Shown here: positions 57,085-63,125 of the stretch, one piece after another
Layout: each line of letters opens with the position of its first letter
How positions within the stretch are numbered: the first letter of the stretch is position 1
Translations under genes and position numbers: made by a program
From: Chitinophaga pinensis
GTDB taxonomy: Bacteria; Bacteroidota; Bacteroidia; UBA4408
NCBI GenBank assembly: GCA_945861665.1
Contig: CAMAVS010000012.1
Location: 1-63,125 of the forward strand
Direction of reading: 5' to 3'
DNA: 63,125 nt
Notes under the pieces: model-generated
Told to the model about the DNA's origin: nothing
Database searches by the model: none
The model's input: only the letters and a program-made list of their open reading frames with translations

Positions 57085-60000
57085 GTGAGTGAACGTATAC
57101 TAAAAGCTTTAATGCAACTTTTTGCAATTGTTGCAAAAGTTGATGGAATTACCAATACCGGTAGAGATATTGTACAAGCATTTTTGAAACAACAACTCAA
57201 TCAAGAGTTGGTAGATGAGTATTTAAAGTTGTTTGATCAATTTATAGAGGGCTATCATAATTTATCGGATGTTACAAAAAAGAAAAAGAGAACTTCAGTA
57301 AACTCTGTTAAAGTTTTAAAAATTTGTACTGAGATAAACCAAGAATTAACACAAAAGCAAAAAGTAGTTGTTGTTATAAGATTGATAGAGTTTGTTAACT
57401 CAAGTAGCGAAATAACTGAACAAGAATTAGAGTTTGTTGAAACAGTTTCTTCTACTTTTAATATCAGTGACGAAGAGTTTAAAGGCTATATAAGTTTTAT
57501 CAATTCTACAGAAACAAGCATTCCCGACTCTACGAATATATTAGTGCTGAACAATTCTAAAGAATGTTATTCTAATATAAAGCATATTTTCAACGAAGCG
57601 CTGTCTGGTGAAATTCGCGTATTAAGTATCAATAGCGTAAATATGTACATATTACGTTATTTTGGTAAAACCGAATTAAATTTAAATGGATTACCACTTA
57701 GCAATGATAAAATAGCTATTCTTAACCCGGGGGCATCTATTAGAAGCTCTAGAGTAAGTCCTATTTATTATAGTGATATAATCGGACGATTCTTGTCGGA
57801 TACCACACAGTCAAAAATTGTTTTTCAAGCAAAGGGAGTTGAGTTCCGTTTCAAAAGCGGAAAAGTGGGTATGAATGATTACAATATGATTGAGGAGAGT
57901 GGTAAAATGTTGGGTATTATGGGAGGTAGTGGAGCAGGTAAATCAACCTTACTAAATATCTTAAATGGTAATGACGCTCCTTCAAAAGGTGGAGTATATA
58001 TTAATGGAATAAACATACACAAGGAAAAACATAAAATTGAAGGTGTTATTGGTATGGTGTCGCAGGACGATTTATTGATAGAAGAGCTTACCGTTTTCCA
58101 AAACCTTTTTTACAATGCAAAATTATGTTTTGACGGGTATTCGGATGAGCAACTTACTAAAATAGTACTTGACTTATTAGCCGACCTTGGTCTTTACGAA
58201 ACACGTGATTTAAAGGTAGGAAGTCCGCTTGAAAAAACCATAAGTGGTGGTCAGCGTAAAAGATTAAACATTGGTTTAGAGCTTATCAGAGAGCCTTCTG
58301 TTTTGTTTGTAGATGAACCAACCTCAGGGCTTTCTTCGCGTGACTCTGAAAATATAATGGACTTACTAAAAGAGTTAGCCCTAAAAGGTAAATTGGTATT
58401 TGTGGTTATTCATCAGCCATCTTCCGAGATTTTTAAAATGTTCGACAAGTTGATTATTCTCGATTTGGGTGGTTATCCTATATATAATGGCAACCCTGTT
58501 GAGGCAATTGTGTATTTTAAATCCTTGGTGAATCATGTAAATGCAAATGAAAGTGAATGCCCTGCTTGTGGTAATGTTAATCCCGAACAAATTTTCAATA
58601 TTATTGAATCAAAGGTAATTGATGAATACGGTGAGCAAACTACTAATAGAAAAATATCACCCAAAGAATGGTATGAAAATTACAAACAGAAAAATGAGGT
58701 TGCTTGTGAATTGATAACAGATTATACAGATGTTCCTAAGAGTACTTTTAATATTCCTAACAAATTCAAGCAGTTTAAGGTTTTTATTACTAGAGATGTT
58801 CGATCTAAATTAACGAATACTCAATACTTAATCATTAACTTGTTTGAGGCACCAGTACTTGGTTTTATATTAGCCTACTTAGTAAAATACTACAATACCG
58901 ATGTTAGTAATAAGGTAGGCTATATTTTTAGAGAAAATGAGAATATGACTGCGTATATTTTTATGAGCGTAGTTGTTGCATTGTTTATTGGTCTTACAGT
59001 TAGTGCAGAGGAAATCATTCGCGATAGAAAAATATTAAAGAGAGAGTCGTTTTTGAATCTAAGTAAGGGCAGTTACTTGTATTCTAAGATAAGTATAATG
59101 TTTTTACTATCTGCTATACAATCGGCATCCTTTGTATTGGTCGGCAATAGTATTTTAGAAATAAAAGGAATGTATCTTGATTATTGGTTTGTATTGTTTA
59201 CAACATCATGTTTTGCAAATATGTTAGGATTGAATATTTCAGCAAGCTTTAATTCAGCAGTTACCATTTATATTTTAATTCCATTTCTTATTATTCCACA
59301 ATTGTTGTTAAGTGGTGTAATTGTAAAATTCGAAAAATTGAATCCTGCAATTACCTCTCAAAATTCTGTTCCATTTGCCGGTGAGATTATGACATCTCGT
59401 TGGGCTTTTGAAGCATTGGCAGTTAACCAATTCAAAAAAAATGAATACGAAAGAAATTTTTATAAGTTTGATAAAGAATTAAGTATTTGTGATTTTAAAA
59501 AGAATTTTTGGATAGGAAACATTAGAGCAAAAATTGATAGATGTGAGAATAACTTATTAGATGTTACTAAAAAACAAGAATTGAAATATGATTTAACATT
59601 CTTGAAAAGTGAAATTGTAAAAGAGTACAAGTTAACGGATATCGGTTTTGCCGAAATTGAGAGTTTAACAACTAGTTCATTCAATACTGCAATAGGTCAT
59701 AAGCTAAAAGCCTATGTTGAAAATATAAATACATACTATAAAAAAAAGTATAACAATGCGAATTCTAATAAGGATAAAAAGATTGCGGAGTTTAATAAAA
59801 CACCCCAGGAACACGATAAATTTTTGTTGCTACAAGACCAATATCAAAACGAAGCCTTGGCTGATTTGGTGCGAAATAAGAATGAGGTAAATAATATTTT
59901 AGAAATCGGTGGTGCATACATTCAAAGAGCTGATCCTGTTTTCCTCGACCCTAAGAAGGACAGTTTTATTAATGCACATTTTTATGCACCTCGTAAAATG

Positions 60001-60162
60001 ATGTTTGGCAAATATGTAGATACTTTTTGGGTAAATATGATAGTGATTTGGTTTATGTCACTCACTATGGCTGTAACGCTTTATTTCGATATGCTCAAAA
60101 AAATGCTAGATTCGCTTGAAGGGATTACTGCCAATATTAAGAAATTACTTAAAAGGAAATAA
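57085..60162 (+). CDS. ABCG-type transporter with N-terminal TerB-like region and fused permease
   Basis: This 1025-residue protein begins with GTG. Residues 1-130 are acidic and helical, resembling a TerB-like domain (LFAIVAKVDGITNTGRDIVQAF). The ATPase follows: Walker A GGSGAGKSTLLN near 279-290, signature ISGGQRKRLNIGLEL near 382 and Walker B VLFVDEPTSGLSS near 406, typical of ABCG (White) proteins. Five membrane helices lie near 585-747 and one near 982-1003. Between them lies a large charged segment (about 750-980) likely exposed outside the cytoplasm. The substrate is unknown. It ends the three-gene module. Confidence 0.85.
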   Translation: MSERILKALMQLFAIVAKVDGITNTGRDIVQAFLKQQLNQELVDEYLKLFDQFIEGYHNLSDVTKKKKRTSVNSVKVLKICTEINQELTQKQKVVVVIRLIEFVNSSSEITEQELEFVETVSSTFNISDEEFKGYISFINSTETSIPDSTNILVLNNSKECYSNIKHIFNEALSGEIRVLSINSVNMYILRYFGKTELNLNGLPLSNDKIAILNPGASIRSSRVSPIYYSDIIGRFLSDTTQSKIVFQAKGVEFRFKSGKVGMNDYNMIEESGKMLGIMGGSGAGKSTLLNILNGNDAPSKGGVYINGINIHKEKHKIEGVIGMVSQDDLLIEELTVFQNLFYNAKLCFDGYSDEQLTKIVLDLLADLGLYETRDLKVGSPLEKTISGGQRKRLNIGLELIREPSVLFVDEPTSGLSSRDSENIMDLLKELALKGKLVFVVIHQPSSEIFKMFDKLIILDLGGYPIYNGNPVEAIVYFKSLVNHVNANESECPACGNVNPEQIFNIIESKVIDEYGEQTTNRKISPKEWYENYKQKNEVACELITDYTDVPKSTFNIPNKFKQFKVFITRDVRSKLTNTQYLIINLFEAPVLGFILAYLVKYYNTDVSNKVGYIFRENENMTAYIFMSVVVALFIGLTVSAEEIIRDRKILKRESFLNLSKGSYLYSKISIMFLLSAIQSASFVLVGNSILEIKGMYLDYWFVLFTTSCFANMLGLNISASFNSAVTIYILIPFLIIPQLLLSGVIVKFEKLNPAITSQNSVPFAGEIMTSRWAFEALAVNQFKKNEYERNFYKFDKELSICDFKKNFWIGNIRAKIDRCENNLLDVTKKQELKYDLTFLKSEIVKEYKLTDIGFAEIESLTTSSFNTAIGHKLKAYVENINTYYKKKYNNANSNKDKKIAEFNKTPQEHDKFLLLQDQYQNEALADLVRNKNEVNNILEIGGAYIQRADPVFLDPKKDSFINAHFYAPRKMMFGKYVDTFWVNMIVIWFMSLTMAVTLYFDMLKKMLDSLEGITANIKKLLKRK

Positions 60163-60748: not shown

Positions 60749-61873
60749 CTATAAATCGTTATCTACCAATGTGGCTACTTCTTCGCCAATAAGGCTGCCA
60801 ATTGCAATGCCCATACCCCCCATTTTAACAGCACAATAAGTATATTGACTTAGTTTTTTTACAATAGGCATTTTGTCATTCCCCAGCCCCATTATACCAC
60901 TCCACCTATGTTCAATTGTGAATTTTTTGTGGGGTAAAATTATGCCGGAAAGTATTTCTTCAAGTCTGTTTTGTATAATTTCAGTTAAACCAAACTCTGT
61001 TGTTGTTTCGCCTTTTAAATCCAAATTTCTGCCACCTCCTAGAAGTATTCTGTTTTCTATGTTCCTAAAATAATAGTAGCCTTTTTCGAAATGGAAGGTT
61101 CCTTTTATGGTAAGATTTTCGATAGGAGAAGTAATTATTACTTGTGCTCTTGCAGGGGTTACTTCCAAATTATTTCCAAGTAATTGTTGGGCAAAACCAT
61201 TTGTGGCAACAATAATTTTTTTTGCAGAAATGTTCCATTCATTATTAACTTGAATTTCGTTGTCATTTAAGCTAGTGATATTTATACCATTAAGGATTAT
61301 TACACCCAATTGCTGTACCTTACTCAGTAGTCTTAACATCATTTTTCCTGTATCGATTTGCCCCTCACCTTTGTTTAAAATTAGATGCTTTATTTGTTCG
61401 AATTCAAACTCTTTTATCAGGTGGTCAGCTTTCACATAGAGTTCCTTTTTACCTGTTATAACCGCCATCATTTTGTTTAAGTAATCTATTTTCTCTGAGC
61501 ATTCGGTGTAAATTGCCTCATTGTCAAATAATTCATATCCTCCCCAATTATGGTAATCAATAAAACTGTCTCCTAAATTATTTCGGAGACGTTTTAATCC
61601 AAGGTATCGTTTTTCAACCAATTTAAACAGCTCATTTTCGGAAATAGTTTTTAGGTCTTCAAGCAGTTCGGTCGGACTTCCGAAACAAGCAAAACCTGCA
61701 TTTTTAATGCTTGCTCCTGACGGCAATATCCCCCTTTCTAGTACAATTATTTTAAGCGAAGGATTGTTTTTTTTTAAGTTAAAGGCAGCATTTAAACCAA
61801 CTATTCCACTCCCAATTATGGCAACATCAATATTTTTTAAAAAAATTTTTTTTTCCCAATAACTTAAATCCAT
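60749..61873 (-). CDS. FAD-dependent oxidoreductase (DAO family)
   Basis: This 374-residue protein has the FAD motif AIIGSGIVGLNAAFNL near 14-29, VLERGILPSGASIKNAGFACFGSP near 45-68 and IVATNGFAQQL near 221. The C-terminal GGMGIAIGSLIGEEVA near 352 completes the DAO fold. Members oxidise amines or D-amino acids; the substrate is unknown. It is divergent from the repeat protein; the 112-base gap shows no clear promoter box. Confidence 0.87.
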   Translation of the reverse strand: MDLSYWEKKIFLKNIDVAIIGSGIVGLNAAFNLKKNNPSLKIIVLERGILPSGASIKNAGFACFGSPTELLEDLKTISENELFKLVEKRYLGLKRLRNNLGDSFIDYHNWGGYELFDNEAIYTECSEKIDYLNKMMAVITGKKELYVKADHLIKEFEFEQIKHLILNKGEGQIDTGKMMLRLLSKVQQLGVIILNGINITSLNDNEIQVNNEWNISAKKIIVATNGFAQQLLGNNLEVTPARAQVIITSPIENLTIKGTFHFEKGYYYFRNIENRILLGGGRNLDLKGETTTEFGLTEIIQNRLEEILSGIILPHKKFTIEHRWSGIMGLGNDKMPIVKKLSQYTYCAVKMGGMGIAIGSLIGEEVATLVDNDL

Positions 61874-61985: not shown

Positions 61986-63125
61986 ATGATATTTACAAAT
62001 TATAGTATTTCGCAGTTTACAAAGCGAATTATTTTTTTACTGTTTCTTTTTTGTTATGTAGGAAACATACAAGTGTTTGCGCAGGCAACTTGGTATTTAG
62101 CTATTGATGGGAAAGTGGAAAAAGATGCTAAAAGGCTTGACGGTGCAGTAGTGACTCTTCTGAAGAATGGTTCAGAAAAAGAAAAAATAAATACTTCCTC
62201 TACCGGAAAATTTATGTTTAAGTTAGAGCCGGATGCAGATTACACCATAAAAATCTCAAAACCTGGACACGTTAGTAAATTACTGAGTGTCAATACCAGA
62301 AATGTTCCACCCGAAGAAGCGGTTAAGGAAGGCTACGTTTTCCCTATTTCCGTTACACTGTTTGAGGAGGTTGCAAATTTGGATGTTTCTATTTTAAATC
62401 AACCTATTGGAAAATTATTTTATAGCAAAGCAGACCAAAATTTTGATTTCGATGAAGCCTATACAAAATCAATGCAGGCTCAATTAGTAGAATTGCAAAA
62501 GCAAATGGCGCTGAAGAAAAAAGAGGAAGCTGAGCGTTTGGCAGAAGAAGCACGTAGAAAGGCTTTGGAAGAGGCAAAAAAAAGGGCAGAAGAAGAGGCA
62601 AGGAAAAAAGCCGCAGCCGATGCAGCAGCGAAAGCCTCAGCCGATGCGAAACTAAAAGCAGCAGCCGATGCCAAAGCAAAATCCGATGCAGATGCCGCTG
62701 CAAAATTAGCAGCCGATGCGAAAGCTAAGGCCGAAGCAGATGCCCGTAAAAAAGCAGATTCAGAAGCAGCAGCGAAATTAGCCGCAGAACAAAAACTAGC
62801 AGCCGAAGCAGCAGCGAAAGCTCTAGCCGATGCGAAACTAAAAGCAGCAGCCGATGCCAAAGCAAAATCCGATGCAGATGCTGCAGCAAAATTAGCAGCC
62901 GATTCGAAAGCTAAGGCCGAAGCAGATGCCCGTAAAAAAGCAGATTCAGAAGCAGCAGCGAAATTAGCCGCAGAACAAAAACTAGCAGCCGATGCAGCAG
63001 CGAAAGCTCTAGCCGATGCGAAACTAAAAGCAGCAGCCGATGCCAAAGCAAAATCCGATGCAGATGCTGCAGCAAAACTAGCAGCCGATGCGAAAGCTAA
63101 GGCCGAAGCAGATGCCCGTAAAAAA
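61986..63125 (+). CDS. Secreted alanine-rich repeat protein (runs off the window)
   Basis: The frame from ATG 61986 is open to the last base: 380 codons with no stop. Residues 1-37 are a signal peptide (FLLFLFCYVGNIQVFAQ). Residues 40-140 are a beta-sandwich-like domain resembling carboxypeptidase-regulatory repeats (IDGKVEKDAKRLDGAVVTLL, NTSSTGKFMFKLEPDADYTI, KISKPGHVSKLLSV). From about 155 the chain becomes a charged, alanine-rich coiled coil (KKKEEAERLAEEARRKAL) and then a tandem repeat of 62 residues. TolA-like spacers are built this way. The function depends on a C-terminus not in the window. Confidence 0.85.
   Translation, partial: MIFTNYSISQFTKRIIFLLFLFCYVGNIQVFAQATWYLAIDGKVEKDAKRLDGAVVTLLKNGSEKEKINTSSTGKFMFKLEPDADYTIKISKPGHVSKLLSVNTRNVPPEEAVKEGYVFPISVTLFEEVANLDVSILNQPIGKLFYSKADQNFDFDEAYTKSMQAQLVELQKQMALKKKEEAERLAEEARRKALEEAKKRAEEEARKKAAADAAAKASADAKLKAAADAKAKSDADAAAKLAADAKAKAEADARKKADSEAAAKLAAEQKLAAEAAAKALADAKLKAAADAKAKSDADAAAKLAADSKAKAEADARKKADSEAAAKLAAEQKLAADAAAKALADAKLKAAADAKAKSDADAAAKLAADAKAKAEADARKK
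62610..63125 (+). repeat. 186-base in-frame tandem repeat, about 2.8 copies
   Basis: The landmarks TGCCCGTAAAAA at 62741, 62927 and 63113 are each 186 bases apart, as are GCAGCGAAAG at 62625 and 62811 and GCAGATTCAGAA at 62754 and 62940. 186 is 62 codons, so the reading frame is kept. Copies differ at few bases, including one GAA/GAT and one GCG/TCG change, so they are recent. The unit is Ala/Lys/Asp/Glu-rich and contains internal AADAKAKADAD-type 11-residue sub-periodicity. The array continues past the window end. Confidence 0.92.

Follow-up and report, generated by a model that had tools for sequence, protein, structure and literature searches.

What kind of protein is encoded at 61986-63125 (plus strand), where an open reading frame of 380 codons with an internal tandem repeat runs without a stop to the contig end, and what lies beyond the point where it is cut? 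The window, that is, the whole stretch of 63,125 nucleotides analysed here, is all of contig C12 of its genome (G000:C12), so the protein breaks off only because the contig ends there. A first-pass annotation had described a secreted protein extended by a recent tandem duplication and had seen its missing C-terminus, possibly an OmpA-like or other binding domain, as the key question.

The repeat array and its probable continuation on a second contig

At the DNA level, the array occupies 62613-63125 (plus strand) and was confirmed by TRF, with a period of 186 bp, 2.8 copies, 97% matches, no indels, and a score of 975. Each unit holds 62 codons, all in frame. Thus, the 186-base period, the in-frame repeat, and the near identity of the copies reported by the first-pass annotation were borne out. 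Comparing neighboring units, we counted 7 mismatches over 186 bases between units 1 and 2, and 3 over 141 between units 2 and 3; these differences hit synonymous and non-synonymous codons alike. Since the identity extends to synonymous sites, it reflects more than protein composition.

We searched the repeat within its own genome and retrieved two strong sites only, one on C12 and the other on the minus strand of contig C9 (92513 bp), at its very tip. The two contigs overlap exactly by 33 nt, the last of C12 (63093-63125) and the first of C9 when reversed, and the frame is open from this overlap to a stop, which gives 283 codons on C9. The array resumes on C9 (L043 12000 down to 11149), and the C-terminal head lies at about L043 11352-11149 (minus strand). 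The genome presented a single match to the N-terminal half (on C12) and a single match to the C-terminal part (on C9). With a sole N-terminal head, a sole C-terminal head, and overlapping contigs, it is very probable that a single gene, at least 652 codons long, was split into these two pieces. The basis of this join is the 33 nt and the uniqueness of each head, not a read, and 652 residues correspond to the simplest join, since the gap may hide further units.

The beginning of C9 also retains a record of change within the array. Its first 78 bases are identical to the end of unit 1; a 96-bp unit with 90 bp missing comes next, and then a unit identical to unit 3 over its first 141 bases. The breakpoints of the 90-bp loss share 18 bp (AAAACTAGCAGCCGATGC), and the reading frame is preserved. 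Judged from these bases, it is a contraction scar, produced by recombination or slippage.

Downstream of the joined gene, C9 harbors a GSCFA-type gene (G000:C9, L043 10115-11086, minus strand). Synteny was discarded as a proof of the join, because the GSCFA-type gene is not beside the family gene in the fetched relatives.

Two heads and a charged rod

The protein starts with a signal peptide at residues 1-32 (61986-62081, plus strand), which reads MIFTNYSISQFTKRIIFLLFLFCYVGNIQVFA and is followed by QATW after the inferred cleavage point. Among 101 family members, 69 present AQ near the equivalent position and many others have SQ/GQ/AE-type sites; a lipobox-like motif was seen in only three. 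The sequence itself and the conservation of this small-residue-Q site in the family support the signal peptide that had been proposed.

The N-terminal head follows at residues 36-155 (62091-62450, plus strand) and was delimited with Pfam, AlphaFold2, PDB folds, and a 45-row alignment. It combines a beta-sandwich, with Pfam-matched residues 40-99, and a family-specific extension ('LNQPIGKLFYSKADQNFDFDEAYTKS'). The match to CarboxypepD_reg (PF13620) had an E value of 6e-6 and 26.9 bits, below the Pfam cut-off of 32.3, and covered only ~60 residues of the window protein; in the relative L118, the match was above the cut-off (36.3 vs. 32.3 bits). The AlphaFold2 model, built from 45 sequences (pLDDT 92.9, pTM 0.87), displayed a beta-sandwich and then the helix that starts the rod, which begins at model residue 126 (protein residue 157). 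When searching the PDB by fold, we found CarboxypepD_reg, Cna-B, and transthyretin-like domains, and a TM-score of 0.76 by target length against the SusC N-terminal extension 9hfj. When searching it by sequence, we found only generic beta-sandwiches, such as those of NOMO2 and SdrD. On the model, this head forms a beta-sandwich of the carboxypeptidase-regulatory-like kind, which is in line with the domain named in the first-pass annotation.

The C-terminal head consists of 66 residues, predicted to fold as alpha-beta5-alpha (pLDDT 91.4, 50 sequences). Its most conserved columns are an NWGGV stretch and the F after it. It presented no significant sequence match in Pfam, NCBIfam, or PDB, and against NCBIfam there were zero matches with E up to 1, T9SS type A/B sorting domains included. 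Fold matches in the PDB (SMC heads, methyltransferases) had E >= 0.03 and TM about 0.55 and were taken as chance. Thus, the missing C-terminus was located at the tip of C9, but the guess of an OmpA-like end failed: the C-terminal part in L043 gave no OmpA match with Pfam or NCBIfam and carries this 66-residue domain instead. Neither did Pfam, NCBIfam, and PDB searches by sequence and fold identify another known binding domain there.

Between both heads, the rod starts as a charged helix (KKKEEAERLAEEARRKALEEAKKRAEEEARKK; 62454-62612, plus strand; from the N-terminal head model and the sequence) before the repeats begin. Alanine accounts for 44% of the rod in the window, Lys/Arg for 24%, and Asp/Glu for 19%. 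Joined in the minimal way, the rod has 414 residues; in it, we counted 134 opposite-charge pairs at i,i+4, compared to 38 in shuffled sequences. Large hydrophobic residues are few and form neither a 7/2 (heptad) nor an 11/3 (hendecad) seam. This charge pattern and the absence of a seam suggest a single charged alpha-helix rather than a coiled coil, and what the window rod looks like, as a prediction, is such a helix. A coiled coil was therefore rejected for the repeat. The rod also matched staphylococcal Sdr/Clf models, but only through its composition, and these matches were discarded.

The earlier comparison of the Ala/Lys/Asp spacer to TolA-type rods was supported, in that it resembles TolA domain II. 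The curated TolA model matched the window protein with an E value of 6e-10 (38.9 bits, cut-off 59.45), over the rod only. In both proteins, in-frame tandem repeats occur in a helical rod rich in Ala, Lys, Glu, and Asp. In E. coli, tolA contains 8-16 in-frame tandem repeats that vary in number, and these changes are RecA-dependent and have phenotypes (PMC3477136). The ends are different: TolA has an inner-membrane anchor and domain III, whereas the window protein has a signal peptide, a beta-sandwich head, and an unrelated C-terminal head, which did not match the TolA-III C-terminal domain by profile (Pfam, NCBIfam) or fold. In place of an uncleaved TolA-type membrane anchor that binds TolQR, its sequence suggests a signal-peptide-like start with a small-residue-Q site, and then a folded head. 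We agree with the first-pass annotation that the N-terminal domain is not TolA-like.

The family across Bacteroidia: heads kept, rods replaced

We built family profiles from the two ends of the protein and scanned genome contigs with the C-terminal head alignment. The C-terminal head was found in 74 of 149 sampled high-completeness Bacteroidia genomes, representing 43 of 101 genera, with up to eight copies in one genome, and in none of 61 genomes drawn from the phylum's other classes. Almost all of the named relatives are genomes of uncultured Bacteroidota, and one named match (L123) carries the label Chlorobiota. The head was absent from the six sampled genomes of family f53, whose GldM is the highest scorer against the GldM model and which is probably Flavobacteriaceae. 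This absence may explain why the protein family is undescribed; searching the literature by domain words, we did not find it.

With the two profiles, we identified 75 full-length proteins in fetched loci (a few loci being one contig fetched twice) that are laid out as signal peptide, N-terminal head, rod, and C-terminal head, with 51 to 1458 rod residues separating the two heads. Two further exported proteins of 3124 and 2240 aa (L163 2024-11395, minus strand; L164 3131-9850, plus strand) carry the C-terminal head at the end, lack the N-terminal head, and are almost wholly charged-helical in appearance.

Across species, both heads are conserved, but the rod varies in length and chemistry. The rods are of three types: charged helix, TPR-like hairpins, and proline-rich. 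On the N-terminal head tree, the rod type changed at least eight times, an approximate count given that many tree forks are weakly supported and that rod classes were defined by composition. Helical and proline-rich alternatives are also known for domain II of TolA and TonB (PMC12204202). Proline-rich, TonB-like rods are present at L131 9302-10165, L135 9272-10135, and L138 5599-6471.

Regarding length, we compared likely orthologues using one genome per species. In genus g20 they have 537, 655, 848, and 851 residues, in g14 from 1263 to 1522, and in g13 from 1002 to 1161, so rod length differs among related genomes of these genera; in genus g16 it is almost constant (504 to 519). The first-pass annotation had expected ongoing expansion or contraction of the array, with rod length varying between strains. 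On an evolutionary scale, the idea stands, given the rod lengths of the relatives and the in-frame scar with its flanking homology. Other members also harbor recent arrays (327 bp, 3.5 copies, 95%; 120 bp, 4.5 copies, 95%; 213 bp, 4.0 copies, 90%), and elsewhere in the family there are units of 126, 174, 243 bp, and more, with lengths that are multiples of three.

Next to the rod gene of the window, there is a divergent FAD-dependent oxidoreductase of the DAO kind (60749-61873, minus strand; blastp and gene order), which is the most regular neighbor of this gene in relatives. The divergent pairing recurs across several families. DAO-linked rod genes do not form a single clade on the N-terminal head tree (8 changes), so the picture is blurred by paralogy, gene conversion, or weak resolution of the tree. 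The DAO-linked gene was interrupted by a contig end in 7 of 12 genomes, compared to 2.0 expected with random placement and gene length set at 3.5 kb (p about 4e-4). This excess suggests that near-identical arrays are common in the DAO-linked gene and that assemblies fail there. Short-read genomes often break in rod genes, and thus true lengths are under-recorded.

Proposed role and competing explanations

An export signal, two conserved heads, and a helical rod of tandem units are established from sequence or confident prediction. We consider, with a probability of about 0.6, that this is an exported two-headed envelope rod protein of Bacteroidia, acting as a periplasmic tether or spacer, with an array that changes in frame by recombination. 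The protein would stay in the periplasm, each head would bind a different envelope component, and the rod would set the head-to-head distance or the reach of one head. As in the tolA gene of E. coli, recombination between units would lengthen and shorten the array in frame. The partner of the N-terminal head may lie in the outer membrane, since its fold also occurs in PorE and on the periplasmic face of SusC-type transporters.

The plan is known but the family is new: it is neither TolA nor OmpA-tailed, and its linker is exchanged unusually freely. A wider proposal can be made only tentatively, and we would not bet on it: an undescribed family of Bacteroidia tethers with fixed heads, interchangeable rods (charged helix, TPR-like solenoid, polyproline), and a length tuned by repeat recombination. 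If true, lineages would adjust envelope distance or reach via repeat copy number. In any case, roughly half of the sampled Bacteroidia genomes encode this family, its C-terminal domain is absent from Pfam and NCBIfam, and fixed heads with a replaced middle offer a natural experiment on what a linker needs to provide: span, stiffness, or mere separation. No recognisable Tol-Pal system exists in Bacteroidota, where a recent survey expects other outer-membrane-stabilising systems (PMC12204202), and this family is a candidate for one of them.

The size of the rods bears on the location of the protein. As one straight helix with 0.15 nm per residue, the minimum rod would measure ~62 nm, and rods of 400-1400 residues would reach 60-210 nm. 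The periplasm is a few tens of nm wide. These lengths are far above it, so a simple span from inner to outer membrane fails for some members, and the 'periplasm-spanning' label of the first-pass annotation is doubtful. An alternative is a rod at the cell surface or outside the cell that projects one head outward and varies its length for reach. The longest rods and the 3124-residue relative with the C-terminal head exceed the periplasm, and the near-identical tandem units between functional ends (97% here) recall Periscope proteins, whose length evolves by unit number (PMC8201768). However, Periscope units are folded domains of surface-attached proteins, whereas here the unit is a bare charged helix, 44% Ala, without a hydrophobic seam. 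We saw no surface anchor either: most members have no lipobox, and the C-terminal head matches no NCBIfam sorting domain, so an outer-membrane export route is not visible. We regard the surface location as unlikely.

Less probable still is a role as an accessory of the type IX secretion and gliding machinery or of PorE-type tethers. PorE carries a CP domain that was compared with the SusC N-terminal extension, and the carboxypeptidase-like domain is common to PorE and the family (PMC12204202). The fold of the N-terminal head is shared, but the window protein lacks the OmpA, propeller, and barrel parts and has its family-specific extension, rod, and C-terminal head. In genome G005, two family genes come directly after gldL, gldM, and gldN (L059, G005:C18, 2-5615), the first one being cut short at 211 aa and a near-copy of the N-terminal head of the second. 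In genome G036, a PorE-like gene encoding multiple carboxypeptidase-like domains and a terminal OmpA part (L079 6317-10003, minus strand) adjoins a family member with a weak C-terminal head. On the other hand, GldM is present in 143 of the 149 sampled Bacteroidia genomes vs. 74 for the C-terminal head, and the gene in the window is most regularly accompanied by an oxidoreductase gene. Co-occurrence was discarded as a sign of T9SS linkage, since a nearly universal GldM does not discriminate.

The array, or its link to C9, could also be an assembly artefact, as the contig stops within the repeat and short-read assemblies mis-handle repeats. We judge it very improbable: every unit has its own differences, the matching end is present on C9, and long contigs of relatives contain entire genes arranged in the same way, including one of 1583 aa in the one-contig genome G145. 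Finally, a divergent TolA or TonB force transducer is hardly credible, despite the TolA match and a choice between helical and proline-rich rods that mirrors their domain II (PMC12204202), because that match is below the cut-off and limited to the rod, the protein seems to start with a cleavable signal peptide and a folded head rather than with a motor-binding membrane anchor, and the C-terminal head has no TolA or TonB match. The periplasmic tether or spacer is the reading we retain.

Elsewhere in the window, an ABC transporter ORF of 1025 aa (57085-60162, plus strand) presents an extra N-terminal region ahead of its ATPase.
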